A stretch of 64,000 nucleotides of DNA from Anadara kagoshimensis (Eukaryota > Mollusca > Bivalvia > Arcoida > Arcidae): assembly GCA_021292105.1 (NCBI GenBank), contig CM037862.1:6862765-6926764 (forward strand), given 5' to 3'. A program made the position numbers and the translations under genes. The number at the start of each line of letters is the position of its first letter. Within the stretch, counting starts at the first letter, position 1. The notes beneath the pieces are model-generated. The model searched no databases, was not told the DNA's origin, and saw nothing but the letters and a program-made list of their open reading frames with translations. Shown piece after piece: positions 10,090 through 55,232 of the stretch.

Positions 10090-13034
10090 ATGACACCTTC
10101 AGAATTATTGACTTATATTTACACAAACACTGATGAAGATGTTATCAAAATGTTCAAGAAAAATCCAGAATTGATTAAGCTACAGTTTAAATTTCGTAAG
10201 TGTTATAATATATGGTAAAACAGAAATTGTATATAATTGACTCCACAAGATTAGTTTTAAAATTGTCTTATCATTAATAAAATATTCAATTTTACGTTTG
10301 GTTAGTAAGAACGTTTCTGTTATTTTACATAAGAATTTGCTCTTGATGAACATATTAGGATACGCGAGCGTATCAGACACATGGACGTCTGGTTTTAATA
10401 AAGTATACATTTATCCTTTTTAGCTGAAATGAATATAGCCAGCATAATTTATTGCATGGCAAACAATCTCTAAATACACCAACTTAAGCGAAAAAAGCCT
10501 TTATGTCACTGAAACACATTGCGAATTTAGAGATGAGCCCAAGTACATAAGACTTTGATTTTGTCTTCCAGCGTTAAAATGAAAGTTCATAATTTTGTAT
10601 TCAAATCATCATAACAAAATAGTTTCCCATGGTATTGGAGAATTTATCATCTTATTTACAGAAATTGTTGCTAATATACTTTTATTATTTTTCTATTTTT
10701 ATTTTTTAGTATGTTTACACATTACCTACTCGAGATTTAAAAAATCAGTATGCACCTGTTGTCAGAAATTAGAAATATTCAAGCCGAACGATTCTATAGA
10801 TTTATTCGTGACAGAATTATGTTGCTTAGACAGAGGTTACTGCAAGTGTCTGCAGGCTGATAAAGAAGAAGAAGACCATTCAGAATGCCGTCCACTGGGT
10901 GAAGTTTGGAATAAAGAAAATGCAAAGACGTCTGTTTTACACATTGCTTCTGCTTTAGGGAAGAAAAAACTAGTTAAATTTATATTTCCTAAAATGAAAT
11001 GCAGTTCATACGACATTTGGGAATTATTTCATAATTTAGATAATGCAACTGGAAGTCTGAAGTTAACCCCCCTTCATGTTGCATTTATTAACAATAGAAT
11101 GGACATTTTTAAACTCTTAATTAAACGATGTGTTTATTTTCTGTGTGCCGAAGGCTATTTTATTGATAAAGTATCAGAAACTGGATATTCTTCTTATGAG
11201 CTTTGCATAACAAGTATTGCTGGATCAAATTCAATCGACTATCTAAATTGCATAATTTCTCGTTTAAAATGGTCATTTGTTAATCATGACAAAGATTTTG
11301 AAACAAGATCGTATGAAAGTATGAAATGGGCATTGTGTAAAGCGTTACACCAGAAATCATATGAATGTGCATCCTTGCTAGCAGACAATGTAAGAAACTT
11401 TTCAATATGTTGGCGTAAAGAATGTAAGAAAGCTGCCGATTTTGTTTTAGATTCTGATGATGATAGACTCTTCACAATTCTCATGAGTATCAGATCACTG
11501 AACTCATCATATTGCCTCAAAAGGTTGATAACAATTGGTAAGTATTTACGGTGATGAAAATTAATTAGTTTAAGTAGGGGACAGAGCTCACTTCAGACAA
11601 GTTGTAACACTGATAAATAGCTATAAATTTTAAATTTAGGGGCCGAGACGTATTACAGGTGCTACTAGGGCTATTGGGTTCCTGCTTATTTTAATCCCTT
11701 TATTTATGTACAGTCCCAAACCAAAGGTTCAGGTGGCAGGCAATTAAACCTGACAAAGTTTGATGCATGGAAATTGCGAAAAACCAAATTATCTCCCTTT
11801 ATAAAATGCAAAACACATATCTGTCTTCGTGCAATAAATGCTCTCATATTAAACGTTGCTATATTTCAGCGATGAGGTTGTGTTTATATATAATGTGTAA
11901 TCTGTTCGACAAAATGTATTAAAGGCATGCTTTCCAAATATGATCACTCAATGTTTACATGTACTTCTATATCGAGGATGTTTGACAAATTTGGTAAATT
12001 TCAAACTAATAACAGCATAGTGTGATAATAGCTTTGTAGTTACATATTACGGTGATACCAGTCAAGTCGTGTTATTAGTCTTGTTATTGTAATCCATGAA
12101 TTATTATATATTTATATTTTTAGGTAATAAAACATTTATCACAAAACTTATACAGATCAAAAGAAAATATAAAAAAGATCTTAAAGGTGAGCCAGTTCCT
12201 TTTCTGACACAGGCAGTGGTCTCCGGCTCTTCATTGGACATTATTGAAATTCTTCTGGCACACTGTCAGGAAGATAACTTTAGATGTTACCATGGCTATA
12301 GTGCCCTGGATTGGGCCAGTCTTTTGGGTTTTAAAGAGATGGAGAAAGTGATAAGACAAGCAGGAATAGAAGAATCTAATGACAGGTCCAGTCCGCCATT
12401 GCATGCAATATTTGACTTCGGAAACATTGAATCTGATTTGTGTGAATCAGTTAAAAGACTTATCGTAGGTGGGCATGATGTTAATGCAGAATCTAACAAT
12501 GGAATAACCCCTTTTGTAAAAGCTATTGAACTGCAATATAATGGTAATATTAACAGATATGCAAGTATTAGAACGTTACTGCAAAATGGCGCAGAACCTT
12601 TCAGAGGTATTGGATGCACAATACCTGTTGACCGTCAACTGTTGGTAGAATTTTTATACTGTAATGTAGATATCTACAACACAAATTATGAAACATCATT
12701 GTTTAAGCATTTGTTGATTACTCAACAATATGAAGATTTATTTTTATTTTTACGATGTGCCAATACCCTACCACAAAGTTACAAAAACGCACTTTCTTTT
12801 TTACATGTACATGGATTAACGGCAGATTGTAATGGGTGGGGTTTAAGGTTAAAAACAGAAATTGGGGAATTGCTGGATAAACCACAGTCTCTTCTAATTG
12901 TTTGTAGAAACCGTCTGAGACGTTTTTATGGAATTAACATTCATAGTTTTGTCAACACTTGCAATTTACCTAGTAGTATGAAGAAGCTTCTTTTGCTTGA
13001 AAATGAATTGCTTTACCAGGTAACTTCGGATTAA
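10090..13034 (+). CDS. ASB-like ankyrin repeat/SOCS-box protein, copy A (intact)
   Basis: Three coding exons: 10090-10195, 10710-11537 and 12124-13034, with GTAAGT donors, TTTTTAG acceptors and phase-1 joins throughout. They give about 614 residues. Residues 1-36 form a charged helical lead (starting MTPSELLTYIY). Residues 48-84 are cysteine-rich (CTCC, LCC, CKC). Ankyrin-type repeats follow near 109-140 (VLHIASALGKKKLVKFIF), 155-180 (TPLHVAFINNRMDIFKLL), 334-390 and 400-470. The C terminus (564-614) is a SOCS box, with BC box SLLIVCRNRLRRF and a Cul-like NLPSSMKKLLLL. ASB proteins recruit substrates to Elongin B/C-Cullin-5 ubiquitin ligases, in the cytosol or nucleus. The substrate is unknown. 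The start was chosen because this ATG follows an acceptor and is kept in all first-exon copies. Confidence 0.85.
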
Positions 13035-15194
13035 ATGCCACTTTTTTATCCAAAAACAACCCTTGAAAAAAACAAGGACTTTAATTTTTCAAAACTCGAA
13101 TATCAAGAAAAAGGTAGGTGAGGGTTGTGCACAGACAATATTTTTGTAGGGCGAAATTAATGTTTTTGGGTTAATGGACCAAGAAGTCGCTCTAGATTGA
13201 ACACTGATATATGCTGTAACATTTAACATACACGTATGTTTCAGGATTTATGCCCAAAAGGAATGTTTTCAGATAGGACATGTTTTACTGAATTTAAAAA
13301 AGTAAAGAAAAAAGGCAATAATATTTTAATTAAGAAATTTAACCCAAAAAAGTGACATGCCTTTTTCTTCTGTTGTAATTTTAGAATCTAAAAGAAAACA
13401 ATACATCTCTGATTATTTTTGTTATAGTTAAAGTAACAATACAACTTTGTGAAATAAACCTGTTCTATCGTTGGCCATTATATCTCTGATTCATCCTAAG
13501 ATTTATTAGCTCACCTGGCCAAAGGTAATTTGAGCTTATGGCATAGAGAATGTTTATAAAAATATCAAACCTTAATTACTCTAAGATAAAATTTTACATA
13601 TAATCAAGATATAACAATTTTAGCTCATTTCATTAATAAGGTGATGACCATTTACTGTGACCTTGGTTTCATGTAGAAAACGATCATGTGATCTTATGAC
13701 ATTGTGCAGTTGGTGTGTGCTTTTCAACGTCTATTTTGATTTCTCTTCTGATAAAACTTGACAGATTTCAATGGAACTTGATTAAAGTAAAAACTCTAGA
13801 AACTGGCGAATTCAGTTAAGCATGTGAACTTCCACCAGATGAGGTCTGGTGATCCTCCTGACGGTTTAGCGACTTTTGCTTAGCTAGGCTAACTACACCC
13901 GTCATATGTAAAATGAAAACGAGAAAGATAGAAACATGGAAATATGAGATGAGACGTCAACCGAATTCAAGATACTTTTGGATACAGTCTAATTAAAAAT
14001 AATAGTGTGATGATTACCATAAAAGCTTCAAGGTCTTGATTTGGACAAGTTTCCAATACTCAATATGAGTCAATTTATTTACAAGCAAGCATTTTACTGC
14101 AACCAATTCAACCATTGTGGACTGCAAATCACTGTAATTTGAAAGCGTGATTCCGGACCTGATGTAGCAGTGTCCGTATCACAAGTGGAGTGATTTGTTG
14201 CTTCAACCATAGCAATACCCGCTGTATGTTTTCCCACAATGGATGTTATTCGTATGATGTATGTATTTTTATAAAATGTAAAGACATAATATTGCTTTTT
14301 TCATACTTAGGGTTGAAGGATCGCATCTTATCTGCTCTGGAGTAAGGATGCATATTTTATAAACATTTGCACTGGCATTACGAAATATTTAAACACTGAT
14401 TTCTGCATGAAACCTTGAAATCAAAAACAAACATTCTAATCCATATCCGAATCAAAATCCAAAAGCAAAGTGAAAACTTTAAAACTTACAAATTAGGCGA
14501 AGCATGTTAATTTTCACCAGGGAAGTGAGACCGGTTGCTCCAGAAGGGTAAGCATATCATGTTTAGCTAGCTACCACTGCGACGCGTATAATCAAACTGA
14601 TTGAAAGGAACATGGATTTATGAGACGTTGACAATGTAACAGTTTGGCAGTTCCAAGGATTGAACCCGGTTTAGCTGTCGGTATTTCCTTTCCGTTTTCC
14701 ATTTTAAGGGATTTAAGTTCGCAAGATGATGTGTCTGTTGTCGCAAGATCGGGGTTTCCAGGCCTCCGATCCTTAAGATAGCTATGATATTCTACGGTTT
14801 ACTGTTGCATAAATAGGTTTGAAACTAATAATTTTGTTATAAATTATTAAAACTAAACGCAGAGACACGCAAACCATATGCCATCTTCGGTATTTAAATT
14901 TAAATTATAGTGTTATTAAATCATTTGGATCTGGTAAAACTTCTGATGTGTGTACAAAGGCGAATTTTGCATTCATAATAAAATAGTATATTGGTGTTAA
15001 TATTTTATCTACAATAACCGCAATATACTGTTCTTCATTATAAATCAACACCTTGTCTGTGGCTATATAGAAGAACTTCTCTGACGGATGATATATTGCG
15101 GATTTTTTTGTCAAACATGCTGTAAATTTTTTATGTCTTTGTAGAATCAGAAATCTGTAAATCACTCATTTAATGCAATCATTTGGTTTTCAAC
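13035..15194 (+). other. 3' flank of ASB copy A
   Basis: Nearly identical to 32772-34940 in unit B and partly alignable with unit C. AATAAA at 13453-13458 is kept in the other copies (33186, 56156) and is a candidate polyadenylation signal. No other gene is supported. A minus-strand frame at 14905-15165 is discussed among the rejected items. Confidence 0.55.
13815..14590 (+). repeat. Two copies of a GTTTAGCTAGCTA dispersed repeat
   Basis: Related blocks at 13815-13905 and 14505-14590 share CACCAG, GTGAGACC, CC...GAAGGGTAAGCA and TTTAGCTAGCTA. Further copies are at 33550-33635, 34243-34320 and 58015-58095, with one inverted at 61365-61445. This is an interspersed repeat of unknown class. Confidence 0.6.
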
Positions 15195-15220
15195 TGTTCA
15201 ACTCTGAGACCTTCAGAGTT

Positions 15221-15308
15221 ATGACCTTCATTTACACAAGCATTAAAAAAGATGTTATTAACTTGTTTAAGAGAAATTCAGACTTGATAAGGCTACAATT
15301 TACATTTG
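15221..15308 (+). pseudogene. Extra ASB first exon (degenerate or alternative)
   Basis: 88 bases homologous to the 3' part of ASB exon 1. The original ATG has become CTG and one base is lost, but an in-frame ATG (MTFIYTSIKKDVINLF) opens 29 codons. The exon ends in the same splice phase with donor GTAAGC. It could be an alternative first exon for the next unit downstream or a relic. Confidence 0.5.
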
Positions 15309-16559: not shown

Positions 16560-16913
16560 TGGGTGTTTACAATGGTAAAAATTTTGACAAAATGGCGGAG
16601 TCTTTCGTGTGACGTAATGATGACGGAAGAATTTATTATTTACGTAGGTTCGCGAGGGGTACAATGAAGGGTAGTCAAAGGTTGGGTTGAGTTTAAAAGT
16701 TTGAATTTACGTCAATTTTTTCAAAAGTTTGAAAATGCAGAAAGGTAGTTCACTTTATTACTTTATTAAATCGATTTTGGTCATCCCGGTTACTCAAAAA
16801 TCAATCCGTTCTTGAGCTGCACTAACCTACGTAAATAGTCGACTCTTTCGTCATGACTATGTAACATAAAGAACCCCGCCATTTCGCAAAAAGATTACCA
16901 TTGTAAACACCCA
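16560..16913. mobile_element. MITE with about 95-base inverted repeats
   Basis: TGGGTGTTTACAATGGTAA at the left is answered by the complement TTACCATTGTAAACACCCA at the right. The arms also share AAATGGCGG and TTATTTACGTAGGTT. It is 354 bases long, non-coding, and nested in the TTAA element. I could not define a target duplication. Confidence 0.75.
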
Positions 16914-17769: not shown

Positions 17770-17806
17770 TCAACGGCTTAACCACTCGGCCGCCAGCTTG
17801 TAAGGG
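17770..17806 (-). pseudogene. Partial tRNA-like 5' half
   Basis: The minus strand reads GGCGGCCGAGTGGTTAAGCC, the D-arm/A-box of a Ser- or Leu-type tRNA. No B box follows within 100 bases, so it is a fragment. Confidence 0.35.
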
Positions 17807-18151
17807 ATACGGTGTAATGATAACATGCGATAATATTAATGAAATTAATGTTACGAATCAACTAGCCAAATACCTATCAATATTTTATTATAAAATAAAT
17901 TCAAAATGAAAAAAATACACAGGGATTCCAAACCATATATATATTTGTTTGTTTATTATCACGCCGAGAAACACATTTTATTTTCCATTTTTCCATTCAG
18001 TTCAAATATCTTCTTTATTTCCTTTACTTATCTGGTATACATCGCTCTAAAATCTTAAAATTGCAATTCTATTCAACCAAAAAAATTATGTTGGTACTCT
18101 GTAATACCACCGAAAAAAAGGAATTGCAAAATATACGAGAAATTGCCGTTT

Positions 18152-21330: not shown

Positions 21331-21369
<39 letters not shown>

Positions 21370-22413: not shown

Positions 22414-23939
22414 TTAATTTCTTGGAGCATTTGGATTTCTTGACATCCATAAAGAAGTATATCCCCTATCCACATTCTCATTCCAATGAGCTACTGCAAG
22501 GTCGGATCTAAACTTGTATTGATCATCACTGAAAGATATTCTCTTGTCCTGAAAAATGTTCATGACGTTATTAAAACTTTCTACGTATGAAGTATCCTTG
22601 GCTAAAACATAATCTCCAGGAGAACTGTAAATGGTAGAATTTTGAATGGCAGATTTCAGCAATTTTATGGCAGTAGAATTTTTCAATACAATTCTTGATG
22701 GTTCGTAATTTGGATCCTGTTTACAGCGAGATGTTATATGGCAATTTGAGTGATTGTTTGAATAATGTTCAACAATATTATCCAATGACTGTTGTAGTTT
22801 AACTGGATCATTTTCACAATTTCTAACAGCCCAATTAAAATGTGTAGCGACTGGTTCTACTTTGTCTGCTAGTTGTTCACTCCATGTTTTACCCTCATGT
22901 TTCATTGCTCCTCGTGAAATATTTGATACCGATTTTTTTACTTTTTTAACTGCATGCCACAAGTCATTTTGGTTCATTGTAAAATTTGTGTCTCTGACAA
23001 ACTTGTTAACTGATATGTTTCTGTCATGTGAGTGGACTTTGATATCTATATTTTCATTATCAAAATGTTATACATCCTCTTAGTGCCCAAAGTTTCATGT
23101 CTTTGAGAAACTGGATCATCAGATTTTGTTATGTGGACGCAATCTAAAACTTTATGACTGTTTTCTCCTAGTGCAACATGAGATGTATCTTTTGCATTTT
23201 TTCGCCACCCATGTGCATCGGTCATTATATTAATCCCATCTAATTCCTCGTAGCTTCCTATTTCTTCCATTCTTGCATCTTGAATTGACTTGATCGTTCT
23301 ATCATTTGCTGCACCCTTATATATTTCAAAAAACTTCTGTCTTCTTTCTCTATTAATACATCCTATCCCGGCGGCAGTTGAAAAGCGGTAATAGTGGATA
23401 GGAAGCATACCACTGCAAAGAAAAGCATGGTTTATTCTGTGATTTAGAAGGTATTCGTCGTTTGGAAGGTATGGTGATGAAGACCATAAATAGGAATGTC
23501 CTTTGTCAGTTGAACACTGTAGTCTTGTGCCCAAGACATGTCCTTTCATTGTCTTTTTTGAAATTTTGAGTTTTCCTTTGCAGATACTTGTATGAGCCTC
23601 ATAAATTTCACCAAAAATATTCAAAGATGACTCTGCAGTCACAAATGCAAGTTGATTAACATCCTTCTTTTGCACTTGGCTGTATGAGCATGGAAATGGA
23701 TGTCCTTGCTCTTCTTCATTCTCATTGTGATGTTGAAGCCAATAATCTAAAAGTTCCTCAATAACTGTTGCATTGTTTGCTGGTTTGTTGTATTTGCTTG
23801 TCAAATGACTTTTTACCAAAAGTATTTTATCTTGTATACTCTTTTTGAAGTCTTCAGCACCTGAAATTTCTATTCTAAAATTTGGAAGACGTTTTCGAGA
23901 TGATTCTTGATTATCACTCATGTTGAAACTATAAGACAA
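22414..23939 (-). pseudogene. Kolobok-like DDE transposase, one frameshift
   Basis: Two abutting minus-strand frames (23939-23046 and 22977-22414) join into a protein of about 500 residues. At about 23060 the frame moves by one base near an ATTTT run. The first part has MTDAHGWRKN and LDCVHITKSDD. The second part, read upstream of its first Met, has HSHDRNISVNKFV, then NQNDLWHAVKKVKK, RCKQDPNYEPS and DTSYVESFNNVMN. The order D...DR...DLWH..KK...ESF matches the catalytic region of Kolobok-type transposases, which cut and paste DNA at TTAA. One shift in an otherwise complete frame means a recent break or a sequencing error. Confidence 0.75.
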
Positions 23940-26030: not shown

Positions 26031-26394
26031 ATGACACCCTCAGACTTATTGACTTTCATTTACAAAAACACTGATGAAAATGTTATTAAATTGTTCAAGG
26101 AAAATCCAGAATTGATTAGGCTAGAGTTTACATTTGGTAAGTGTTAAAATATGTGGTCTATACTCCACAAATTTCTAAAAATAGATTCAATTTAAGTAAG
26201 ACGTGTTGGAATTAAAATGAAATAATAAGTAACAGTTTTACAACAGTACGTGATCACATCCCTTCATGATCACGATTGAGAAAGTGTTTCGGTTGCTGTT
26301 TCAAGAACCTTTTTTAAGGATTAAATGGTTTACCAGGTTAATCTGCAACTATCAGCATGTAATGTTGTATAGTAGTCTAAAATTGATCAAATGG

Positions 26395-29726: not shown

Positions 29727-32700
29727 ACACTTGCATTCTTTAACCATAGTGATGTTAATTGTGTTTACTTAGAAATTGTGTAAGAGTAATAAAGATGCTG
29801 GTCTGTTATTTGTTATTTAAAAAGATATACGAAATAAAAAAATTCTTTTTGTTATTTTTTCTATTTGTTGTAAGAAATGAAAAATGGACATTTTGCATAT
29901 TTAAAATAATAAAAACTATGCAGTGTGTAAAAATGTAATTCTTCCATTATTCAAAAAAAACCCTTTTACTTATAATTGTTGTTACGTTTGAAAGAATATC
30001 ATAAGGGTAAATCATCTGGAAATAAGTTTTAAATATTAATTATATTTATGATTTAGACATATGCATGGAGTTTTAGTTTTATATGATTTCTTAAAACTTT
30101 TCAACAGGGCATTATTAGTCGTGAGCGTATCATGCTCATCTGGGTCTCTAGTTTTATAAAAAAGCTTAACTTATTGCATGACAAACAATCTGTAAATGCA
30201 CCAATTACAGCAAAAATGCCTTTCTGTCATTGAAATATATAGCGAATTTAGAGATGGGTTCAAGTGTCCAGTCGTCCAGTGTTGAAAATAGAAAAAAAAT
30301 TGAATTAAAACCACCAATCAATCATATGGATAAAGTATTACATTCAGTTTTTCATGGTATTTGTGAATTTGATATTTGGGTTACTGAAAATAATAATTAT
30401 ACACTTTCATTTTTGTTATTTTCTATATTTATTTTCAGTATGTTTCTACAAGTACAGATTAGGAAAATCAGTATGCTCTTGTTGTCAGAAATTAGAAACA
30501 TTCCATTCGAAAGATCCTGTAGGCTCACTGGTGACAGAACTATGTTGTTACTTAGACAGAGGATACTGCAAGTGTCTGCAGGAAATGCAAATGTTTGAGA
30601 AATCAGAACAAGAAGACCATTCAGAATATCGTCCAATGTATAAAGTTTGGGATAAGGAAAATGCAAGGGTATCTGTTTTGCACATTGCTTCTGCGTTGGG
30701 GAAGAAGAAACTAGTTAAATTTATTTTTCCTAAAATGACATGCAAATTATACGACTTTTGGGAATTATATCATAATTCAGATTATGCAACTGGAAGTCTG
30801 AAGTTAACTCCCCTTCATGTTGCATTCATTAACAATAGAATGAACATTTTTAAACTCTTAATTAAACGATGTGTTTATTTTCTGTGTGCCAATAGCTATT
30901 TTATTGATAAAGTATCAGAAACGGGATATTCTTCTTATGAGCTTTGCATAACAAGTATTGCTGGATCAAATGCAATCGACTATCTAAATTGCATAATTTC
31001 TCGTTTAAAATGGCCATTTGTTAATCATGACAAAGATCTTGAAGCAAGATCGAATGAAAGTATGAAATGGGCATTGTGTAAAGCGTTACACACCAGAAAT
31101 CATATGAATGTGCATCCTTGCTAGCAGACAATGTAAGAAACTTTTCAATACGTTGGAATAAAGAATGTAAGAAAGCTGCCGATTTTGTTTTAGATTCTGA
31201 TGATGATAGACTCTTCACAATTCTCATGAGTATCAGATCACTGAACTCATCATATTGCCTCAAAAGGTTGATAACAATTGGTAAGTATTTACGGTGATGA
31301 AAATTAATTAGTTTAAGTAGGGGACAGAGCTCACTTCAGACAAGTTGTAACACTGATAAATAGCTATAAATTTTAAATTTAGGGGCTGAGACTTATTACA
31401 GGTGCTACTAGGGCTATTGGGTCCCTGCTTATTTTAATCCCTTCATTTATGTACAGTCCCAAACCAAACGTTCAGGTGGCAGGCAATTAAACCTGACAAA
31501 GTTTGGTGCATGGAAATTGCGAAAAACCAAATTATCTCCTTTTATAAAATGCAAAACACACATATCTGTCTTCGTGCAATAAATGCTCTCATATAAAACG
31601 TTGCCATATTTCAGCGATGAGGTTGTGTTTATATATAATGTGTTATCTGTTCGACAAAATGTATTAAAGGTATGCTTTCCAAATATGTTTACTCAATGTT
31701 TACATGTACTTCTATATCGAGGATGTTTGACAAATTTGGTAAATTTCAAACTAATAACAGCATATAAGTGTGATAATAGCTTTGTAGTTACATATTACGG
31801 AGACACCAGTCAAGTCGTGTTATTAGTCTTGTTACTGTAATCCATGAATTATTATATATTTATATTTTTAGGTAATAAAACATTTATCACAAAACTATAC
31901 AGATCAAAAGGAAATATAAAAAAGATCTTAAGGGTGAGCCAGTTCCTTTTCTGACACAGGCAGTGGTCTCCGGCTCTTCATTGGACATTATTGAAATTCT
32001 TCTGGCACACTGTCAGGAGGATAACTTAAGATGTTACGATGGCTATAGTGCCCTGGATTGGGCCAGTCTTTTGGGTTTTAAAGATGGAGAAAGTGATAAG
32101 ACAAGCAGGAATAGAAGAATCTAATGACAGTCCAGTCCGCCATTGCATGCATATTTGACTTCGGAAACATTGAATCTGATTTGTGTGAATCAGTTAAAAG
32201 ACTTATCATAGGTGGGCAGGATGTTAATGCAGAATCTAACAATGGAATAACCCCTTTTGTAAAAGCTATTGAACTGCAATATAATGGTAATATTAACGGA
32301 TATGCAAGTATTAGAACGTTTACTGCAAATGGCGCAGAACCTTTCAGAGGTATTGGATGCACAATACCTGTTGACCGTCAACTGTTGGTAGAATTTTTAT
32401 ACTGTAATGTAGATGTCTACAACACAATTATGAAACATCATTGTTTAAGCATTTGTTGATTACTCAACAATATGAAGATTTATTTTTATTTTACGATGTG
32501 CCAATACCCTACCACAAAGTTACAAAACGCACTTTCTTTTTTACATGTACATGGATTAACGGCAGATTGTAATGGGTGGGGTTTAAGGTTAAAAACAGAA
32601 ATTGGGGAATTGCTGGATAAACCACAGTCTCTTCTTATTGTTTGTAGAAACCGTCTGAGACGTTTTTTGGAATTAACATTATAGTTTTGTCAACACTTGC

Positions 32701-32771
32701 AATTTACCTAGTAGTATGAAGAACTTCTTTTGCTTGAAAATGAATTGCTTTACCAGGTAACTTCGGATTAA

Positions 32772-34957
32772 ATGCCACTTCTTTATCCAAAAACACTTAA
32801 AAAAACAAGGACTTTAATTTTTCAAAACTCGAATATCAAGAAAAAGGTAGGTGAGGGTTGTGCACAGACAATATTTTTGTAGGGCGAAATTAATGTTTTT
32901 GGGTCAATGGACCAAGAAGTCACTCTAGATTGAACACTGATATATGTTGTAACATTTAACATACACGTATGTTTCGGGATTTATGCCCAAAAGGAATGTT
33001 TTCAGATAGGACATGTTTAACTGAATTTAAAAAAGTAAAGAAAAAAGGCAATAATATTTTAATTAAGAAATTTAACCCCAAAAAAGTGACATGCCTTTTT
33101 CTTCTGTTGTAATTTTAGAATCTAAAAGAAAACAATACATCACTGATTATTTTTTTATATTTGAAATAACAATACAACTTTGTGAAATAAACCTGTTCTA
33201 TCGTTGGCCATTATATCTCTGATTCATCCTAAGATTTATTGGCTCACCTGGCCAAAGGTAATTTGAGCTTATGGCATAGAGAATGTTTATAAAAATAACA
33301 AACCTTCATTACTCTAAGATAAAATTTTACATATAATCAAGATATAACAATTTTAGCTGATTTCATTAATAAGGTGATGACCATTTACTGTGACCTTGGT
33401 TTCATGTAGAAAACGATCATGTGATCTTATGACATTGTGCAGTTGGTGTGTGCTTTTCAACGTCTATTTTGATTTCTCTTCTGATAAAACTGGACAGATT
33501 TCAATGGAACTTGATTAAAGTAAAAACTCTAGAAACTGGCGAATTCAGTTAAGCACGTGAACTTCCGCCAGATGAGATCTGGTGATCCTCCTGACGGGTT
33601 AGCGACTTTTGCTTAGCTAGGCTAACTACACCCGTCGTATGTAAAATGAAAACGAGAAAGATAGAAACATGGAAATATGAGATGAGACGTCAACCGAATT
33701 CAAGATACTTTTGGATACAGTCTAATTAAAAATAATAGTGTGATGATTACCATAAAAGCTTCAAGGTCTTGATTTGGACAAGTTTCCAATACTCAATATG
33801 AGTCAATTTATTTACAAGCAAGCATTTTACTGCAACCAATTCAACCGTTGTGGACTGCAAATCACTGTAATTTGAAAGCGTGATTCCGGACCTGATGTAG
33901 CAGTGTCCGTATCACAAGTGGAGTGATTTGTTGCTTCAACCATAGCAATACCCGCTGTATGTTTTCCCACAATGGATGTTATTCGTATGATGTATGTATT
34001 TTTATAAAATGTAAAGACACATAATATTGCTTTTTTCATACTTAGGGTTGAAGGATCGCATCTTATCTGCTCTGGAGTAAGGATGCATATTTTATAAACA
34101 TTTGCACTGGCATTACGAAATATTTAAACACTGATTTCTGCATGAAACCTTGAAATCAAAAACAAACATTCTAATCCATATCCGAATCAAAATCCAAAAG
34201 CAAAGTGAAAACTTTAAAACTTACAAATTAGGCGAAGCATGTTAATTTTCACCAGGGAAGTGAGACCGGTTGCTCCAGAAGGGAAAGCATATCATGTTTA
34301 GCTAGCTACCACTGCGATGCGTATAATCAAACTGATTGAAAGGAACATGGATTTATGAGACGTTGACAATGTAACAGTTTGGCAGTTCCAAGGATTGAAC
34401 CCGGTTTAGCTGTCGGTATTTCCTTTCCGTTTTCCATTTTAAGGGATTTAAGTTCGCAAGATGATGTGTCTGTTGTCGCAAGATCGGGGTTTCCAGGCCT
34501 CCGATCCTTAAGATAGCTATGATATTCTACGGTTTACTGTTGCATAAATTGGTTTGAAACTAATAATTTTGTTATAAATTATTAAAACTAAACGCAGAGA
34601 CACGCAAACCATATGCCATCTTCGGTATTCAAATTTAAATTATAGTGTTATTAAATCATTTGGATCTGGTAAAACTTCTGATGTGTGTACACAGGCGAAT
34701 TTTGCATTCATAATAAAATAGTATATTGGTGTTAATATTTTATCTACAATAACCGCAATATACTGTTCTTCATTATAAATCAACACCTTGTCTGTGGCTA
34801 TATAGAAGAGCTTCTCTGACGGATGATATATTGCGGATTTTTTTGTCAAACATGCTGTAAATTTTTTATGTCTTTGTAGAATCAGAAATCTGAAAATCAC
34901 TCATATTTAATGCAATCATTTGGTTTTCAACTGTTTAACTCTGAGACCTTCAGAGTT
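32772..34957 (+). other. 3' flank of ASB copy B
   Basis: Aligns almost base for base with 13035-15220, including AATAAA at 33186-33191 and two GTTTAGCTAGCTA repeats (33550-33635, 34243-34320). Nothing else is supported. Confidence 0.55.
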
Positions 34958-35045
34958 ATAACCTTCATTTACACAAGCATTAAAAAAGATGTTATTAACT
35001 TGTTTAAGCGAAATTCAGACTTGATAAGGCTACAATTCACATTTG
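34958..35045 (+). pseudogene. Extra ASB first exon, second copy
   Basis: Same degenerate exon as at 15221, but the start is ATA and the donor has changed to GTACTG. This copy is unlikely to be used. Confidence 0.5.
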
Positions 35046-36439: not shown

Positions 36440-36527
36440 ATGACCTTCATTTACACAAGCATTAAAAAAGATGTTATTAACTTGTTTAAGAGAAATTCAG
36501 ACTTGATAAGGCTACAATTTACATTTC
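36440..36527 (+). pseudogene. Extra ASB first exon, third copy
   Basis: 88 bases with an in-frame ATG (MTFIYTSIKKDVINLF), phase-1 end and donor GTAAGC. It is the nearest such exon upstream of the copy C body but is about 14.6 kb from exon 1 of C. An alternative exon or a relic. Confidence 0.45.
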
Positions 36528-43053: not shown

Positions 43054-43104
<51 letters not shown>

Positions 43105-44215
43105 GTGGTCGTCATCACCATCAGAACTATTCATGTCATATTATCATCGTGATAATGGTGGTGATGATGGTAATGATCATCTGATGGTGATGGTGATGAT
43201 GATGATGATGATAATATTCAGTTCTGCTGAAGCTGATTATGATGGTAATAACTCATGATGGTGATGATAAAGACATCGTTTTCATGTTGATGATGATGTG
43301 ACAAGAGGATTTCTAATGATGATGATGATGATGATCTGATGAAGATGATTATGCTTATGATGGTAATTTTGACATTCAGTACTTCTGCTGCTGATGATGA
43401 TGATGACGATGATGATGATGTCACCATGATGATTATGTGATATTAATAGCTATGATGATGATGACAATGATGATGTTGTTACCACATTAATGATGTGACA
43501 TGAGGATTTCTGATAATGATTATGATGATGATGATGACGGTGACATGAGGATTTCTGATAATGATTATGATGATGATGGCGCTGATAGTAGTGACATGGG
43601 TTCTACTGCTGCTGCCAATGATGATGGTAATGATGATGCATGGTGATGATGATGATGTCTTCATGTTGATGATAATGTAATATGAGGAGTGATGATAATG
43701 ATGATGATGATGATTATGATGATGAATTGCCATTGGATTTCTGATGTCAAAGATGTTGGTTATGATTTCTGACTGAAATTAGACCCAAAACAACAACATA
43801 ACTCTGCTGTTGCTACTACAAAATCATTGTATCTTTTCAGATAACAAGGTTTTGTATCATCACCATCAGTAGCAGCATAATCATCATCATCACCACCATC
43901 ATCATCAGTATTCATGCCATATCATCATCATCTTCTTCATCATAATAACCATCAGTAGTAGAATTCATGTCACCAATACTGTTATCATCATTGTCATCAT
44001 CATCATCAGCAGCAGCATCATCATGATTCATCGTCTTCATCAGAACTTTTCATGTTACATCAACATCAAAAAATGAAATCATATTCATCATCACCATCTT
44101 CATCAGTAACTACTCATGTCACATTCCCATCACCATCATCATAATCATAATCATCATCATCATAGGCAACAGCAGAACCATAACTATCATCATCACTACT
44201 TTCCTACGTTCAGCA
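40866..44215. mobile_element. Insertion within LINE ORF2
   Basis: ORF2 coding breaks off after EYLNKKIHNINQ and resumes at NTFWKDV. The intervening 3.35 kb begins ACGTAGGAAAGT and ends in the exact complement ACTTTCCTACGT, a 12-base inverted repeat. No target duplication is clear. The left half (40880-42450) is AT-rich without a recognised gene; a B-box-like AGGTTCGAAAT lies at about 41138 (minus). The right half is the GAT array. Confidence 0.6.
42465..44170. repeat. Large GAT-rich array with inverted second half
   Basis: Degenerate GAT/GAC/AAT trinucleotides dominate 42465-43740 and are mixed with repeated sub-motifs (GACATGAGGATTTCTGATAA at about 42807, 43498 and 43543; TTCTGCTGCTG). From 43855 to 44170 the composition switches to CAT/ATC triplets with CAGCAGCAG, the complement of the first half. 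Frames rich in His, Ser, Asp or Ile here are artefacts of the repeat. Confidence 0.9.
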
Positions 44216-47063
44216 CTATCAGTGCTTTGATTAATATTATGTATTTTCTTATTTAAATATTCCACTCCTATAGTGGCAATGTCATTACTTTGAAAATTAA
44301 AACTTCTAGATAACCTTAAACATTTAGAATCCCTTTGTAAGAGTCTTCGTATCCAGGTCATTTTTAAGGCTTTGATGAAAGATGTAAGATCGATCATTTT
44401 TAACCCTCCCTTCTGATAATTTTGAATTATTATATCTCTTTTGATTCTGTCAATTTTATTGTTCCAGATAAAGTCATAAAATAAAGTGTTTAATTTATAT
44501 ATTAACTCATTTGTAGGATTAGGTAAACTTATGAATAAGTGATTGAATTTTGAAATAACAAGCGATTTTATTAAAGTAATTTTACCGAGTGGTGTCAAAC
44601 TTCTCGTTTTCCATATCTGAATTAATTTTTCTGCTTGTTTAACTTTTCCATCATAGTTTAAAGATATCATTTTATCTAAATCTACATGAAATTTTATTCC
44701 TAATAAAGTAAAAGTATGTCCCCACTCCAGTTTTAATCGATGATTAAATGTTTCTCCAGAAAATTTTTTGCAACCTATCCAAACTGTTTTACATTTATTT
44801 ATATTGGTATTCAATCCAGAAATGTTGGCAAAGAAATTTAAAGTTTTTAAAGATTCATCTATAGATTTATAAGACCCATCTAAAATAAGAGATGTGTCAT
44901 CAGCAAATTGTGAAATTTTAAATTCTTCTTTATTTATTGTAATACCTTTGATTTCTTTATTATTTTTTATCATAATACTTAGTATTTCGGCACATATTAA
45001 AAAAAGGTAACTTGAAATTGGGTCCCCTTGTCTCACTCCCCTGCCTACCGCAAAAAATTCTGAGACAATGTTGTTTTGCACTACTGCAGAAGAAATATTT
45101 GTATATAAGATTTTTATCCATCTTTTAATAGACTCCCCAAAATTGAAAAAGTCAAGAACCTCGAATAAAAAATCCCACGATACCGAATCATATGCTTTTT
45201 GAAAATCAATCAAATATAACATACCAGGTATGTTATGGTTTTCAGTATATGTCATTATATCAGCGATTAGCCTAATATTTTCAGCTATGTGTCTACCACT
45301 TAAAAAACCAGTTTGGTCCTCTGATATTATTTTATTTAAGACAGATTTAAAACGCTCTGCTATACAACCAGAAGCTATTTTATATACAACATTTAGTAAA
45401 GTGATCGGTCTCCAGTTTTGTAAATATTCTCTCGGCTTATCTCCTTTGGGTATACACATAATAATTCCTTGTTTTTGAGTTATAGACAATTCCCCTTTAT
45501 GTAACCTTCATTTATTGACCTTAGTACATATATTCCCAAATCTTTCCAAAAAAATTTAAAAAATTCTACCGTAAACCCATCAGACCCTGGACTCTTGTTA
45601 TTTTTCATTTTCTTTAATACAGACAATGCTTCATTATTACTTATTTCTCCCTCCAGTTTTAAATTGTCATTTTGGTTTAGTTTATTTATATCTATCAGTT
45701 TAAATTCATTTTTTAAATCTATTTTTTCTGTCTTTTTTTCTTCATAGAGTTTTGAATAAAATGATTTAACTTCATTAAGAATTTCTTTTTGATTAGTTAT
45801 TTCGTTTCCACTTTTATCTATTAATCTACTAATCGTTTTATTTTCGAAATTATGATTTTCCAAATTAAGAAAGTATTTATTTGGTTTTTCCCCTTCCTCG
45901 ATCCACTGCACTCTTGATCTTATTATACTACCTTTTAATTTTTCATTTCTAACGGTTTCCAAATTTTCTTTTAAATCCTGCAACACCGATAGGTCTTCTT
46001 GGTTTAAATTATTTTTATTTTCTAACTTTAATATTTGATTTTTTAAATTAGTTTCTACTTTATTTTTTTCCTTTTTAATGAAAGATGAGTGTGCAATACA
46101 TTTTCCTCGGATTTCCATTAAAAGTGTTTCTAGGAATAGTTGGTCAGATATTGTAAACTGTATATTATCTATATTATTTAAATTATCTAAGTTATATAAA
46201 GGTACCATGTATTGTTTAACAGTATCTTTTATACATCGTTTAATTTTATCAATGAACACCTGATCGCGTAATAAGTTGGCGTTAAATTTCCAAAGGCCCC
46301 TACCCTTAACAAAATTATTTGGCTTAAGAGACAAGATTACCATAGAATGATCCGACCTATAACTGGGTTCAATTTGAACTTTACATACTTGATTAAATAT
46401 ACTGTCACTTATTAGAAAAAAGTCCAATCTAGATTGTTTAAGAGGTTTGCTTCTTCTCCATGTATACCTTTTTAAATTAGGATATAGTTTTCTAAAAGGA
46501 TCAGTCAAATTGTATGTATCTTTAATTTCCAAAACCTTTTTCTAGCCCTTGGGTTATTTATATTTTTATATTTATCCATATCAAGATCAGGTTCTTGTAT
46601 CAAATTAAAATCTCCACATATAATATTTGTTGTGCAACTAAGTGTCTCTATATGTCTAACTAATTTTGTATAAAAATCAGGTGAATCTATTAGGGCCATA
46701 TAAATTCAGTAAATTAAATCTGAAATTATTCATTTCTACATCTAATATTAAAAAATTACCATCGGTATCTGTTATTTCTTTATGTATTTTAACATCTGAA
46801 CCCTTTTGAAAAAGAATACAAACACCCCTAGCGTTTGATGTATATGCGGAAAAAAAGCTTTTACCATCCCATTGACTTTTTACTGTATTTTCAATTGCAC
46901 TCGAAAAATGTACATCTTGTAAGCAATAAATATGACAATTCATATCTTTAAGGTAACTAAAAACATCGTGCCGTTTCTTAAAATCGGATAAACCTCTACA
47001 ATTATAAGACAATATTCTAATTACAGTGTCAAACGTTTTATCATCGCTTTTATCTACACTCAT

Positions 47064-47194
47064 GATTTAAATGATATAATAACAATGCGTTGTAATATAT
47101 CAAAAACTTATACATATAATCTACATGCAGTATGAAAGATAACTTATTTACAAAAATACAACTACGTATTTGACTATTCATGTTTGCTTGCATT

Positions 47195-47249
<55 letters not shown>

Positions 47250-48518
47250 TGGAAGTGGAAGAATTGTATTAACAATAAGGTGTTGCTAATACAGGCGCCT
47301 TTCCTAGAATAACGGGATACATTAAGTATTTGATAGTATGATTATATACAAGTAAAATATCTATACAAACAAAAGCATGTCATTTCGGCCGCAAGGATGA
47401 CTTAACAAAGGGTAAATCAGTTATTACTTGATACAAGTATTACAGTAAGTATTACTTATTATATAACATATTATGATATACGCGTACTTCAAGAAAACAA
47501 AAAATGTATACATATACCTATATACATACACTTGTGTGCGTGACTATATGTGTGTGAGTGCGCGTATGTGTATGTGTGCGCACATTTCGGGCCGATATTA
47601 CCCTATCCTTTTTTGTGTAGTACTATCTTTTGTATGTGCAAATTTTGAATATTTACAAAATAGTACAAAAGTAGCACATAACAATTATGATAGATAAATT
47701 GATAGTTGTATATTAAGAGGAAAAAAAACAATATTAAAAACCGTAACGTACATGTGCGCGCGCATTTCGGGCCGATATTACTCTATCCTTTTTAGTGTAG
47801 TACTATCTTTTGTATGTGCAAATTTTGAATATTTACAAAATAGTACAAAAGTAGCACATAACAATTATGATAGAAAATTGATATTTGTATATGAAGAGGA
47901 AAAAAAAACAATATTAAAAACCGTAACGTACATGTGCGCGCGCATTTCGGGCCGATATTACTCTATCCTTTTTAGTGTAGTACTATCTTTTGTATGTGCA
48001 AATTTTGAATATTTACAAAATAGTACAAAAGTAGCACATAACAATTATGATAGATAAATTGATAGTTGCATATGAAGAGGGAACAAAAAACATATTAAAA
48101 AACCGCAACGTACATGTGCGCGCGCATTTCGGGCCGATATTACTCTATCCTTTTTAGTGTAGTACAATATTGTATGTGCAAATTTTGAATATTTACAAAA
48201 TAGTACAAAAGTAGCACATAACAATTATGATAGATAAATTGATAGTTGCATATGAAGAGGGAAAAAAAGTACATAAGGAATATACAAAATAATGTATAAT
48301 AGCGCTTGCACTTAGTGTCTATGCAATGTATTTTCTGGGATTGTACTGTTATGATCAACTCAGATACATGTATTATTACTAAACATTGTACATCGTAAGT
48401 GTATTACAGAATACAAATATATAGCATAATAATTCTAAAAAGTATAATACACATTTATATGAGAGGAAAAAAAACGCGCATAGACACAGTACAAAACCAA
48501 GAAGAAGGATATAGATAG

Positions 48519-48590
<72 letters not shown>

Positions 48591-48676
48591 TTTAAAGCAT
48601 CAAAAATAAGTATAAATATATATTTTTACATAAGTAGTACAAAGTTTCAATTTGTGAATACTGTGTAGCATTGTGT
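47064..48676. repeat. LINE ORF1-ORF2 spacer with microsatellites
   Basis: 1.6 kb between the two LINE ORFs, long for this type of element. It contains (AG)n at 47201-47246, a four-unit array of about 180 bases at 47581-48260, and (AT)n at 48522-48588. No coding sequence. Confidence 0.8.
47581..48260. repeat. Four tandem units of about 180 bases
   Basis: CATTTCGGGCCGATATTA starts at about 47583, 47763, 47943 and 48125, and each unit runs through TTTTGTATGTGCAAATTTTG and ATAACAATTATGATAGA. The units differ by only a few bases. The short frames in each are by-products of the repeat. Confidence 0.95.
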
Positions 48677-49937
48677 CTATAGTTGTGTTATCAGATTTTG
48701 AACGATGTCTTGCATATAAGCAAAACGCTTTGGACCTAACCTCCTGTGGCTAGCCTTTCGGGTAATTACTGCCGCAAAGTTGTCCATTGTATATTGTCTC
48801 ATATGATTTATTAATTGTCGTCCCGCTCCGATCTCTCCATCATCATCAAATCCTTCGTGTAATTGTCCACTCTGGTCGTAAAATCTGTACACTACAATAT
48901 TGTGTGTCGCACTCGCGTTTACAGGATTTTGCAGGATCATTTTGCTGAAATTCCTAATGTCATTGAAACATGACACTTTAGTACCGCTGCCCCAAAACTC
49001 GTTTCCTGCGTCAATAATCGGTTTTGCTGTTACACATGGAATTTTTTCCAACAGCTGTCGTTCTGGTTCTTCCGTGCTCAATATCTGTTCAGCTTTTGGT
49101 GTTTTGACCTTATCTCTGTATACGGACCCATTTTCAAAAACAAGCTTGTTACCAAGAACACGCGTTTTTCACATTTTGTTCGTTATAGGTTTTTTGCAGA
49201 TCGTACAACATTCGACGTCGTTCTAATACTTCTGTTGGTGATTGTGGTGTAAGGTGAAATGAAAAATTTGACCCGTTATCTTTCTTTGTTTTATATGTTT
49301 GTAACACGTTTTCTTTTTTGGTATAATCTGCTAATCTAGCAACAATTGTACGTGTTTTATTGTTTGAGAATGGACCTATGCGATGTATTCTGTCTATCTG
49401 TATATCAGTCATTTCTAACTCTTTTTCTAATGTCGTTCTCATTTCTATGTGTAATTTCTCCCCTTTTTTCTCCTGATATCCATGTATTAGGATATTATTT
49501 CGCATTGACCTACCTTTTAAATCTAACAACTGCTCAGATTGTTGTGTAACGGTTCTATCTAGCTTAACTATAATAGCCTTCATTAAGTTAATCTCCTTTC
49601 GTAACTTTATATTTTCTGCTTTAATGGTAGTCATGTCGGACAGAGTATCGTCTGCTTGATGTGAAAATAGTTGAAGTCTTTCGTCAACCCCGTCCTTACC
49701 CCAAATATCTTCTCTTAACCCTTTCATTTCAAATTCCATTTCATCTACTTTTTCTAATTTTTTGTTAATGTCTTTTAAAGTTTGTGATATTATAGGTAAA
49801 GCTGATAGTGCTTTACTCACCTCTTCCATGTTTACATTTTGTTCAGGTGTAGCCATTGTATGTGAATATATACTGTCTTCCTGCTCGTTTTCACTTATTT
49901 TTCTTTTTGCATAGGCTCTTCTTTCGTTCAATGACAT
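48677..49937 (-). pseudogene. LINE ORF1 (coiled coil and RRM-like), one frameshift
   Basis: Minus-strand ORF1 of the LINE. Residues 35-140 are heptad-rich (coiled coil, LSALPIISQTLKDINKKLEK). Then RSMRNNILIHGYQE and DRIHRIGPFSNNKTRTIVAR form the RRM-like core of L1/Tx1 ORF1 proteins, which bind LINE RNA as trimers. At about 49160 the frame shifts; the continuing frame reads RVLGNKLVFENGSVYRDKV and then MSTEEPERQLLEKI to a stop at 48677, an extra C-terminal part of about 130 residues. One base change would restore continuity. Confidence 0.8.
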
Positions 49938-50448
49938 AATTACCGTCCATTCAATGCAATATCATGTTATAAGCACCATCCATCCTCAGAATTCCATAAA
50001 CTTACATGTATACCCACTATTACAAGGGAAAAAACCTGGAGGTATTAAAACCGCCTGAGTGTTATGAGCGCCATATTGCTGTCCGTAATGAAAATTTTGA
50101 AAAAGTGGCGCAAAAATCCTGCATTCTGGTGCAATCTGAGCTGAACAATATGTATTTTTAGCGACATAAAGGGGGTGCGTATTCCCCCTACGCCCCCCGC
50201 TGAATCTGCCACTGGATATGGGGTACCTCTGAAAATTTTGACGCCCTTTTACAAGTATAATGATGAAATTGATAATTGATTGGTTACCAGATGGACATTT
50301 CCTGTTAACGCTCTTGTTTTTTTTTTTTTTTTTTTTTTCTTTGTTATTTTTAGCATGATACAAAATTTCACACAATATATTGGGGGGCCTGGCCCCCCCT
50401 TCTCTGACATTGGGGGGCCCCCCCCCCTGCTCCTACGCCTATGATGAT

Positions 50449-51034
50449 GCTATTTTTGGTAGTCCCAATTCTTATTCTTACGTAAATCAATCATTTGGGT
50501 CTGTTGTGTGTACACAGGCGCTATCTCTTAATAATAAAGAATGATATACTGGTCAATAAATATTTATATGAATATTAATGGCAATATTCTGTTCTTCGTT
50601 ATAAATATAAACAAGTGTCTGTGACTATTTGTGAGAGGTACTGTGACGAATGATATATTGCTGAGTTTGTTAGCAAATACAAAATTAAAGTAGATTTTAC
50701 ATGTCATTGTAGAGTCAGTATTACGTACATCACTCATTTTTAATATGCTATACTATACTCAAAATTCGCTGCTAGTTTCGATTTTAAATTCCTTAAACAC
50801 TAACGATTACTCCTTCATGAAATATATTTCCTTGGCTACAAACAGTAATGTATATTTTCGTCCTTTTTGTTATCTCTTCAAGATTTTGAAACAAAAAAAA
50901 ATTTGTTTTGCAATTTTAGCCAAGCACTACTGATCAGAAATTGTATTCCGGAACTGTCGTCCCTTGCTGTAAAAATAAAACTGGTATGATAATATGTAAT
51001 CTTAATGCAATCATATTTTTTCAACATTACAGGA
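50449..51034 (+). promoter_or_regulatory. 5' flank of ASB copy C
   Basis: Non-coding, homologous to 21890-21976 joined to 25529-26030, that is, unit B without the Kolobok-like element. It ends in the acceptor ATTACAG at 51032. Confidence 0.6.
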
Positions 51035-54000
51035 ATGACACCTTCAGACTTATTGACTTTCATTTACAAAAACACTGATGAAGATGTTATTAAATTGTTC
51101 AAGAAAAATCCAGAATTGATTAGGCTAGGGTTTACATTTGGTAAGTGTTAAAATATGTGTTTTATAATTCACATGGTTCTGAAAAAGATTCAATTCGTGT
51201 AAGAATTGAAATAAAATAATAAGTTACATTTTTACAACAGTACGTGATCACATCTCTTTAAGATCACAATTAAGAAAGTGTTTCGGTTGCTGTTTCAAGT
51301 ACCTTTTTTTCAGGATTAAATGGTTTACCAGGTTAATCTGCAACTATCAGCATGTAATGTTATATAGTAGTCTAAAATTGATCAAATGGAAATTTACGTC
51401 ACAGTTGAGAAAAATTCACTCATTTCGAGACGTCACTAGTTATAGGTCAAGTAACAGGAATGTTGACCTTTGCAGTGCGCTTAGGGCAATTTGAATGGAG
51501 GATATCTTAACATGCCACGCCTACTGTGACAGGGGACGTCGGTATTTAAGGTCTTTTCCAAAGAATGCAAAAATGAAAAATGGACATTATGCATATTTAA
51601 AATAATAAAAACCATGCAGTGTGTAAAACATGTAATTATTTCATTATTCAAAAAAAACTTTTTACTTATAATTGTTGTTATATTTAAGATTTAGACATAT
51701 ACACTGTATATCACATAACTCTCCTGTTTATTGATGTAATAAAACGGTGTAATATTTTTCTTATTACACAGGTACCCATGTAATATCACTTACTGTGATA
51801 ATAGAATTGTGACGTAATCAGTTCGCACGATTCTGACTGATTCATAGCATAAGAAAATATTCCTACGCCATTCGTGTGCTTCTTTTTACAACCTTACTAT
51901 GTCCAAAATGACTGCATTTATTGTTGGGGATACCGTAAAACACGTAGACGGAGAAGAAATTGGTATATTGAAAGAAAAAATTCCCAAAAGGTTTGCTACA
52001 TTCTATGGTGGAACACAACAGTGACATCATTTACGTAGCGGTCGCGCCTAATGACGTCATAAACTGTGTCAGTCTGTTGTTTATTTTTAGACTTTTGTAG
52101 GCTTTCCCATTATTTGAAAAGTAATTTTGATGGATTCGAAAAATATAACAAAACTTACATACTGAATTTGTCTTTTTTATTTTAGTTGATTAATTTACTT
52201 TTACTATAACTAAATAGAACTTACTTGCGCAGTTTATTTGGAGGTGATTTGTCTGACCTAGAAAGAAGTCAGCTGTTTCTATATGGCATCAAATAATATG
52301 TACATGCCATTGTGTCTCGGTATTTGGAGTTATGTGATGTATGGAATCTTAGACTTGTGAGGGTTTAATATGAAATTTATTTAACTCATTCAATAATTAA
52401 ATATGCCACTCGCCAAGGCTCGTGACATATTTAATGATTAAACTCGTTTAATAAATATCATATTAAACCCTCACTCGTCTATGATCCTCTATGTATGGAG
52501 TTTCAGTTTTTATGATTTCTTAAAAATTTTCAACAGGGCTTATTAGTCCTGAGTGTATCATGCTCATTTGGGTCTCTGGTTTTTATAAAAAATGCAGTTT
52601 CCCTTGTAAGCTGAACTTGATGTAGTCAGCTTAACTTATTGCATGACAAACAATCTGTAAATGCACGAATTACAGCAAAAATGTCTTTCTGTCATTGAAA
52701 TATCTAGCGAATTTAGAGATGGGTTAAAGTGTCCAGTCGTCCAGTGTTGAAAATAGAAAAAAATGAATTAAAACCACTAATCAATCATATTGATAAAGTA
52801 TTACATTGAGTTTTTCATGGTATTTGAGAATTTGAAATTTGGGTTACAAAAATAATAATTATACACTTTCATTTTTATTATTATCTATATTTATTTTCAG
52901 TATGTTTATATAAGTACAGATCAGAAAAAGAAAAATCAGTATGCTCTTGTTGTCAGAAATTAGAAACATTCAATTCGAAAGATCCTGTAGACTCACTGGT
53001 GACAGAACTATGTTGTTACTTAGACAGAGGATACTGCAAGTGTCTGCAGGAAATGCAAATGGCAAATTCAGAACAAGAAGACCATTCAGAATATCGTCCA
53101 ATGTATAAAGATTGGAATAAGGAAAATGCAAGGACGTCTGTTTTACACATTGCTTCTGCGTTGGGGAAGAAGAAACTAGTTAAATTTATTTTTCCTAAAA
53201 TGACATACAAATTATACGACTTTTATACGACAGATTATGCAACTGGAAGTCTGAAGGTAACTCCCCTTCATGTTGCATTCATTAACAATAGAATGGACAT
53301 TTTTAAACTCTTAATTAAACGATGTGTTTATTTTCTGTGTGTAAATAGCTTTTTTATTGATGACGTATCAGAAACGGGATATTCTTCTTATGAGCTTTGC
53401 ATAACAAGTATTGCTGGATCAAATGCAATCGACTATCTAAATTGCATAATTTCCCGTTCAAAACGGACATTTGTTAATCATAAAATTGATGCAAGATCGA
53501 ATGAAAAGATTGTTTTGGCATTGTGTAAAGCGTTACACCAGAAATCATATGAATGTGCATCCTTGCTAGCAGACAATGTAAGAAACTTTTCAATACCTTG
53601 GCGTAAAGAATGTAAGAAAGCTGCCGATTTTGTTTTAGATTCTGATGATGACAGACTCTTCACAATTCTCATGAGTATCAGATCACTCAACTCATCATAT
53701 TGCCTCCAAAGGTTGATAACAATTGGTAGGTATTTACGGTGATGAAAGTATATTAGTTTAAGTAGGGGATAGAGCTCACTTCAGACAAGTTGTAACACTG
53801 ATGAATAGCTATAAATTTTAAATTTAGGGGCCGAGACTTATTACAGGTGCTACTAGGGCTATTGGGTCCCTGCTTATTTTAATCCCTTCATTTATGTACA
53901 GTCCCAAACCAAAGGTTCAGGTGGCAGGCAATTAAACCTGACAAAGTTTGGTGCATGGAAATTGCGAAAAAACTAATTATTTCCTTTTATAAAATGCAAA

Positions 54001-55232
54001 ACACACATATCTGTCTTCGTGCAATAAATGCTCTCATATTAAACGTTGCTATATTTCAGCGATGAGGTTGTGTTTATATACATTGTGTAATCTGTTAGAC
54101 AAACTGTATTAAAGGCATGTTTTCCAAATATGTTTACTCAATGTTTACATGTACTTCTTTATCGAGAAGTATGTGCTCCTCTTTTTGACAAATTTGGTAA
54201 ATTTCAAACTAATAACAGCATATAAGCGTGATAATAGCTTTGTAAATACATATTACGGTGACACCGGTCAAGTCATGCTATTAGTCTTGTTATTGTAATC
54301 CATAATTATATTATTTTTTTAGGTAATAAAACATTTATCGCAAAACTTATACAGAACACAAGGAAATATAAAAAAGATCTTCAAGGTGAGCCAGTCCCTT
54401 TTTTGACACAGGCAGTGGTCTCCGACTCTTCATTGGACATTATTAAGATTCTACTGGCACACTGTCAAGAGGATAACTTTAGATTTTACCATGGCTACAG
54501 TGCCCTGGATTGGGCCAGTCTCCTGGGTTATAAAGAGATGGAGAAAGTGGTCAGACAATCAGGAATAGAAGAATCTAATGACAGGTCCAGTCCGCCATTG
54601 CATGCAATATTTGATTTCGAAAATATTGAATTTGATTTGTGTAAATCAGTAAATAGACTTATCATAGGTGGGCATGATGTTAATGCAGAATCTACCAATG
54701 GAATAACCCCTTTTGTAAAAGCTATTGAACTGCAATATAATGGTTATATTAACGGATATTTAACTATTAGAACGTTACTGCAAAATGGCGCAGAACCTTT
54801 CAGAGGTATTGGATGTACAATACCTGTTGACCGTCAACTGTTGGTAGAATTTTTATACTGCAATGTAGATATCTACAACACAAATTATGAAACATCATTG
54901 TTTAAGCATCTGTTGATTACTCAACAATATGAACATTTATTTCTCTTTTTACGATGTGCCAATACTCTACTACAAAGTTACATAAAGGCACTTTCTTCCC
55001 TACATGTACATGTATTAACGACAGATTGTAATGGGTGGGGTTTAAGGTTAAAAACAGAGATTCAGGAATTGCTGGACAAACCACAGTCTCTTCTTATTTT
55101 TGTAGAAACCGTCTGAGACGTTTTTATGGTATTAACATTCATAGTTTTGTCAACACTTGCAATTTACCTAGTAGTATAAAGAAGCTTCTTTTGCTTGAAA
55201 ATGAATTGCCTTACCGGGTTGGTTTGGATTAA
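51035..55232 (+). CDS. ASB-like gene copy C, SOCS box out of frame
   Basis: Exons 51035-51140, 52901-53725 and 54323 onward, all phase 1, are open and divergent from copy A at many codons (for example an LYKYRSEKEK segment at the start of exon 2). Ankyrin repeats are kept (VLHIASALGKKKLVKFIF, TPLHVAFINNRMDIFKLL, GYSALDWASLLGYKEMEK). Near 55096 one base is missing relative to copy A, so the frame ends at 55116 (LIFVETV) before the SOCS box. The box (CRNRLRRFYG, LPSSIKKLLLL) survives intact in the next frame to 55232. If real, the product would keep its ankyrin part but lose the ubiquitin-ligase link. Confidence 0.75.
51899..52024 (+). other. Small ORF in intron 1 of copy C
   Basis: 41 codons from ATG to TGA, starting MSKMTAFIVGDTVKHVDGEE, with a KEKIPKRF stretch. 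It reads like a fragment of a small beta-barrel (KOW/Tudor-like) domain, but this is only an impression. TGACGTCA follows at 52053. Not present in units A or B. Confidence 0.3.
52351..52480. repeat. Foldback element in intron 1 of copy C
   Basis: The left arm GTGAGGGTTTAATATGA... and the right arm ...TCATATTAAACCCTCAC are complementary over about 55 bases around a short centre (CACTCGCCAAGGCTCGTG). Palindromic MITE. Confidence 0.85.

Follow-up and report, generated by a model that had tools for sequence, protein, structure and literature searches.

The window analyzed here, a stretch of 64,000 nucleotides from the bivalve Anadara kagoshimensis (assembly GCA_021292105.1, contig CM037862.1, C6:6862765-6926764), carries a tandem family of ASB-like genes with three known coding exons, which encode a short N-terminal segment, ankyrin repeats, and ankyrin repeats followed by a SOCS box, respectively. 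The overall explanation that we favor, and hold to be fairly probable, is that this family was expanded by unequal crossing-over, that two haplotypes of the locus stand side by side in the assembly, and that many of the frameshifts in its copies are consensus errors. For the most part the array is an ordinary one, composed of ASB-like genes and expanded by ordinary unequal crossing-over.

Exon structure of the copies and their SOCS boxes

Three copies, A, B, and C, are located on the + strand within ~45 kb. They share one exon plan (3/3), with GT-AG borders and phase 1 at both introns, and their DNA is 86-94% identical between copy pairs over 2.8-5.2 kb, far above chance. The original prediction, drawn from the letters of the window alone, of a tandem array of three copies in the same orientation with identical splice phases is therefore borne out. 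As for the three gene copies that it also announced, the structure is present in A, B, and C, while only A is open end to end. The ATG exon of copy A, delimited by splice and exon comparison, spans positions 10090..10195. It is followed by exon 2 (10710..11537; Ank_2, E 1.9e-8), encoding a Cys-rich N-terminal part and the first ankyrin repeats, and by exon 3 (12124..13034, including the stop codon; Ank_2, E 2.5e-8), encoding further ankyrin repeats and the C-terminal SOCS box (12882..12995), and the spliced copy is an open reading frame (ORF) of 614 residues. Copy B comprises exons at 26031..26136, 30439..31280, and 31872..32771, the coding bases of the first being identical to those of gene X of a second cluster described below. 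Copy C comprises exons at 51035..51140, 52901..53725 (Ank_2 match and exon comparison), and 54323..55232, all of these features being on the + strand. An acceptor-like AG stands two bases 5' of the ATG in A, B, and C, leaving space for a possible further upstream 5' exon.

In both A and C, exons 2 and 3 give Ank_2 hits that exceed the Pfam cut-off, and the ankyrin array expected of the ASB family is thus present. Regarding the SOCS box, for which the original prediction had proposed a profile search, copy A returns a weak match (15.9 bits, E 0.016, under the curated cut-off of 23.5) located at the canonical C-terminal place, and the six tails with a SOCS_box match score 14.2-19.6. Homology to a SOCS box outside the Pfam cut-off is found with ASB9: the last 60 residues of A report ASB9 as the top PDB hit (E 0.0016; ranks 1-3 among the five matches listed), and a six-row family profile (A3) returns it at 1.3e-5, with nothing else under E 0.5. 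Together with the Ank_2 hits, these matches support the ASB-like architecture of ankyrin repeats and SOCS box that was first proposed. The BC box, SLLIVCRNRL, conforms to the pattern [APST]LxxxCxxx[AILV], which matches once in the 614 residues of A (residues 567-576) and in 374 of 20,000 shuffles of its last 60 residues. AlphaFold2 prediction of exon 3 on a three-row alignment has a predicted local distance difference test score (pLDDT) of 34.7, too poor for a SOCS-fold comparison.

In the proposed mechanism, the ankyrin stack would bind the substrate, while the BC box and the C-terminal half of the SOCS box would bind Elongin B/C and recruit Cullin-5/Rbx2, respectively, making each protein a putative substrate receptor of the Cullin-5 RING ubiquitin ligase (CRL5) that marks other proteins for destruction. 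Several points weigh against this assignment. Every SOCS_box score in the family lies under the Pfam cut-off, a relative on contig C12 (L022) gave no SOCS_box match with Pfam, and the family profile includes near-identical rows. Moreover, the Cul5-box motif, given as LP-Phi-P in PMC4812663, is absent from A, which reads LPSS at residues 593-596. A SOCS-like tail that no longer recruits Cullin-5, being either vestigial or restricted to Elongin binding, would account for both the low Pfam scores and this LPSS. We nevertheless consider it quite unlikely, as the BC-box pattern is intact, a paralogue on contig C5 keeps the tail (44% identical to A where the two align), and ASB9, which shows LPED at the same position in the alignment with the A tail, is reported to form a CUL5 ligase in vitro (PMC7950132). 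ASB9 and the family both end in a SOCS box placed after ankyrin repeats, and neither possesses a canonical LP-Phi-P. Copy A differs from ASB9 by its length and its extra N-terminal Cys-rich segment, and orthology is not claimed; in searches with the whole A protein or with exon 3, ASB9 does not appear in the 60 best rows listed, which consist mostly of designed ankyrin proteins. Although strict membership fails at the Pfam cut-off, the family members likely act like ASB receptors. The genes are probably Cullin-5 receptors, as originally predicted; homology makes this a fair prediction, to which the LPSS does not conform.

A mosaic copy, a second cluster, and frameshifts

Copy B is a mosaic. 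It is C-like before A position 11153 (135 of 157 informative sites) and A-like after it (253 of 285), the switch falling within its exon 2, and a one-switch model brings a log-likelihood gain of 129. Its upstream flank is 99.87% identical to the X flank over 3 kb, and its downstream part shows 1-3% substitutions relative to A. One unequal crossing-over event involving a C/X-type copy and an A-type copy would explain B, and since B joins a C/X-type 5' part to an A-type 3' part, we infer that the array grew by unequal crossing-over between C-type and A-type copies.

A search of the genome (1.115 Gb, 36 contigs) returned at least 19 matches with exon 3 and at least 11 with exon 2. They correspond to pieces of A, B, and C, of gene Z (C6:6.797 Mb), of an exon-2 fragment (6.859 Mb), and of genes Y (9.650 Mb) and X (9.674 Mb), the others being the C5 paralogue (32-36% identity) and relatives on C12 and C15 (28-32%). 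Y and X form the second cluster, which lies ~2.7 Mb away on the same contig and has the same outer flanks: the 5' flank is common to Y and Z, the 3' flank is common to X and C, and both are colinear, at 85-99% identity, along most of the sequence in the two 5-kb pairs compared. Two versions of the locus are therefore present, one with Z, the exon-2 fragment, A, B, and C, and the other with Y and X, that is, two genes instead of four. Most likely, these are unpurged haplotypes standing side by side in the assembly. This reading is favored because seven pairs of equally scoring SOCS-box matches lie 0.3-2 Mb apart, each pair on one contig (C1, C5, C9, C11, C14, C18, and C19). Two of these pairs were compared, with 96.7% identity over 3.1 kb in one and 91-97% identity, in pieces, in the other, and they resemble unpurged haplotigs. 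The competing view, and a point against haplotypes, is that the second cluster is a true segmental duplication, so that one haploid genome would carry six copies. The ~2.7 Mb separating the clusters on the same contig would fit, as would the absence of N in the pieces examined at the second cluster, which do not cover the intervening stretch. With both outer flanks colinear as far as compared and similar SOCS pairs recurring in the genome, we deem such a duplication fairly unlikely. The two locus versions also differ by an insertion at window positions 58409-60200, which includes part of a DDE_1 transposase (59214-59720, E 1.8e-9) and is missing from the equivalent position next to X (L045). 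Gene content likewise differs between genome versions in the mussel pan-genome, where presence-absence variation is reported (PMC7653742), whereas the present case concerns one locus in one assembly.

In the assembly, one of the three window copies is open (A) and X is open in its three exons, while the reading frame is interrupted in B, C, Y, and Z. Compared with A, copy B has 2 additional nucleotides in exon 2 (frameshift at 31088) and ten deletions of 1-2 nucleotides in exon 3, and in a three-way alignment one of its stretches is best read as a +1/-1 pair. Copy C is devoid of one base near 55098 in the SOCS-box codons, having one T fewer than its relative X, and its SOCS frame is otherwise kept downstream. 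Exon 3 of Y and Z displays four and two one-base deletions, respectively, and zero substitutions, and over the 6.3 kb aligned, deletions of 1-2 nucleotides outnumber insertions by 20 to 1 in Y and by 11 to 3 in Z. Because near-identical copies differ mostly by short deletions, many of the small frameshifts are probably consensus errors, and some of the copies that are interrupted here may therefore work.

The frameshifts of B, C, Y, and Z could also be those of a birth-and-death array, in which A (and X) would work and the four others would be true pseudogenes left by duplication. The exon-2 fragment upstream of the window and the concentration of copy B deletions in exon 3 are in line with this view, which we nonetheless find doubtful: true decay should have brought substitutions as well into the substitution-free exon 3 of Y and Z, and the excess of deletions over insertions in these two copies also argues against it. 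Consensus errors, which we prefer, have difficulties of their own beyond the lack of read-through in four copies. Ten of the 11 deletions of 1-2 nucleotides in B relative to A fall in exon 3 (binomial 6e-7), with one in the remaining 3.8 kb aligned, which is unexpected under random consensus error, and part of the exon-3 deletions are outside base runs. Furthermore, short gaps between C and X occur in both directions (X lacking bases at five and C at nine), without a strong deletion bias. The confinement of the B deletions to exon 3 (31872-32771) is explained by neither error nor decay.

Selection and relatives in the genome

The ratio of nonsynonymous to synonymous substitution rates (dN/dS; Nei-Gojobori method, bootstrap ranges in brackets) is 0.55 (0.38-0.80) for the whole A-C gene pair and 0.48 (0.34-0.68) for A-X, and in exon 3 it is 0.33 for A-C, 0.32 for A-X, and 0.59 for X-C. 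The family is under constraint on average, and the diversification that had been claimed for the array is without support for the whole gene. As anticipated, the divergence between A and C peaks in the N-terminal part of exon 2, where dN/dS is 0.61 (0.31-1.29). However, dS is raised there together with dN (0.31 versus 0.08 in the rest of the exon) and the edge of a recombination block lies there, so that this divergence alone was rejected as a sign of diversifying selection. The rest of exon 2, its second half, reaches 0.64-1.58 among the six pairs of A, C, X, and Z, on 3-11 synonymous changes each, and exon 2 reaches 1.54 for B-C, on 6 synonymous changes, none of these values having been compared statistically with 1. 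Together with the gene number differing between the locus versions, they would suit an immune-like recognition array with an ankyrin surface under positive selection, which the low ratios of the whole genes and of exon 3 (A-X and A-C) make very unlikely. Average constraint is the reading that we retain; the middle ankyrin repeats may diversify.

The SOCS_box profile run on the genome returns 66 matches, each over the cut-off, from 113 candidates, and the window copies are not among the 66. Local groups recur in the genome, since three SOCS boxes sit within 6.1 kb on C9 (C9:49826939-49833053), and three exon-3 relatives are gathered within 31 kb on C12 (C12:20029635-20060417). The earlier statement that this class is not usually found as a local array therefore fails in this genome. 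The C5 paralogue resembles the family by the same layout of two large exons and a similar end, and the C12 relatives by forming a local group of three, but the exon 3 of the C5, C12, and C15 relatives is only 28-36% identical to that of the family. One of the C12 relatives (L023) has ankyrin and SOCS scores under the cut-off. Among the papers listed in the literature searches, judged by title or opening of the abstract, none dealt with an ASB or ankyrin/SOCS array in molluscs, and a scan of viral contigs for exon-3 relatives gave 15 pattern matches and no relative.

Extra first exons and other elements of the window

Six first-exon-like stretches are found within the window, three belonging to A, B, and C and three being extra (15218..15307, 34955..35044, and 36440..36526), all on the + strand, which agrees with the three extra first exons in the same orientation originally reported. 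The extra stretches do not have the ATG position of A, B, and C, and all are open with an in-frame ATG farther upstream, for which reason we rejected the idea that they are decayed remnants. The splice donor GTAAG is retained in two of the three (15218 and 36440), the 34955 stretch showing GTACT; the 36440 stretch lies within a 1.48-kb local repeat of the latter. They may represent alternative or spare first exons. In the interval up to copy B, neither an exon 2 nor an exon 3 belonging to the 15218..15307 stretch was found. Spare first exons of this second type, open and with their own ATG, stand after each A-type copy and after Z (L039:8796), and none of them (15218, 34955, 36440, and L039:8796) could be paired with an exon 2 or 3 of its own.

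Among the other elements, a LINE-like (long interspersed nuclear element) stretch on the - strand (44119-49961) contains a reverse transcriptase (RVT_1, E 9.6e-33), upstream of which are an ORF with a UPF0029 (Impact-type) domain (E 3.9e-13) and an overlapping ORF without a Pfam match. We take the overlapping ORF to resemble a LINE ORF1; a LINE ORF1 linked to a UPF0029 domain would be unusual. Also on the - strand are an ORF with a YqaJ-like recombinase domain (244-828, E 3.7e-14), near which the ORF 1756-2175 has no Pfam match, and a Mutator-like transposase remnant (22414-23064; PF20700, E 3.5e-5, under the cut-off). Tandem repeats occupy 47572-48268 (3.9 copies of a 180-base unit, partly in an open frame of 119 residues) and 61755-62125 (18.5 copies of a 20-base unit). 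Rfam analysis of the window yielded nothing at the gathering score.

Where tandem copies are nearly identical in this assembly, frameshifts should not lead to a pseudogene call without accurate reads. If confirmed, the locus would be a single place in an animal genome where CRL5 substrate receptors have undergone duplication and recombination, with a gene number that differs between its two versions.
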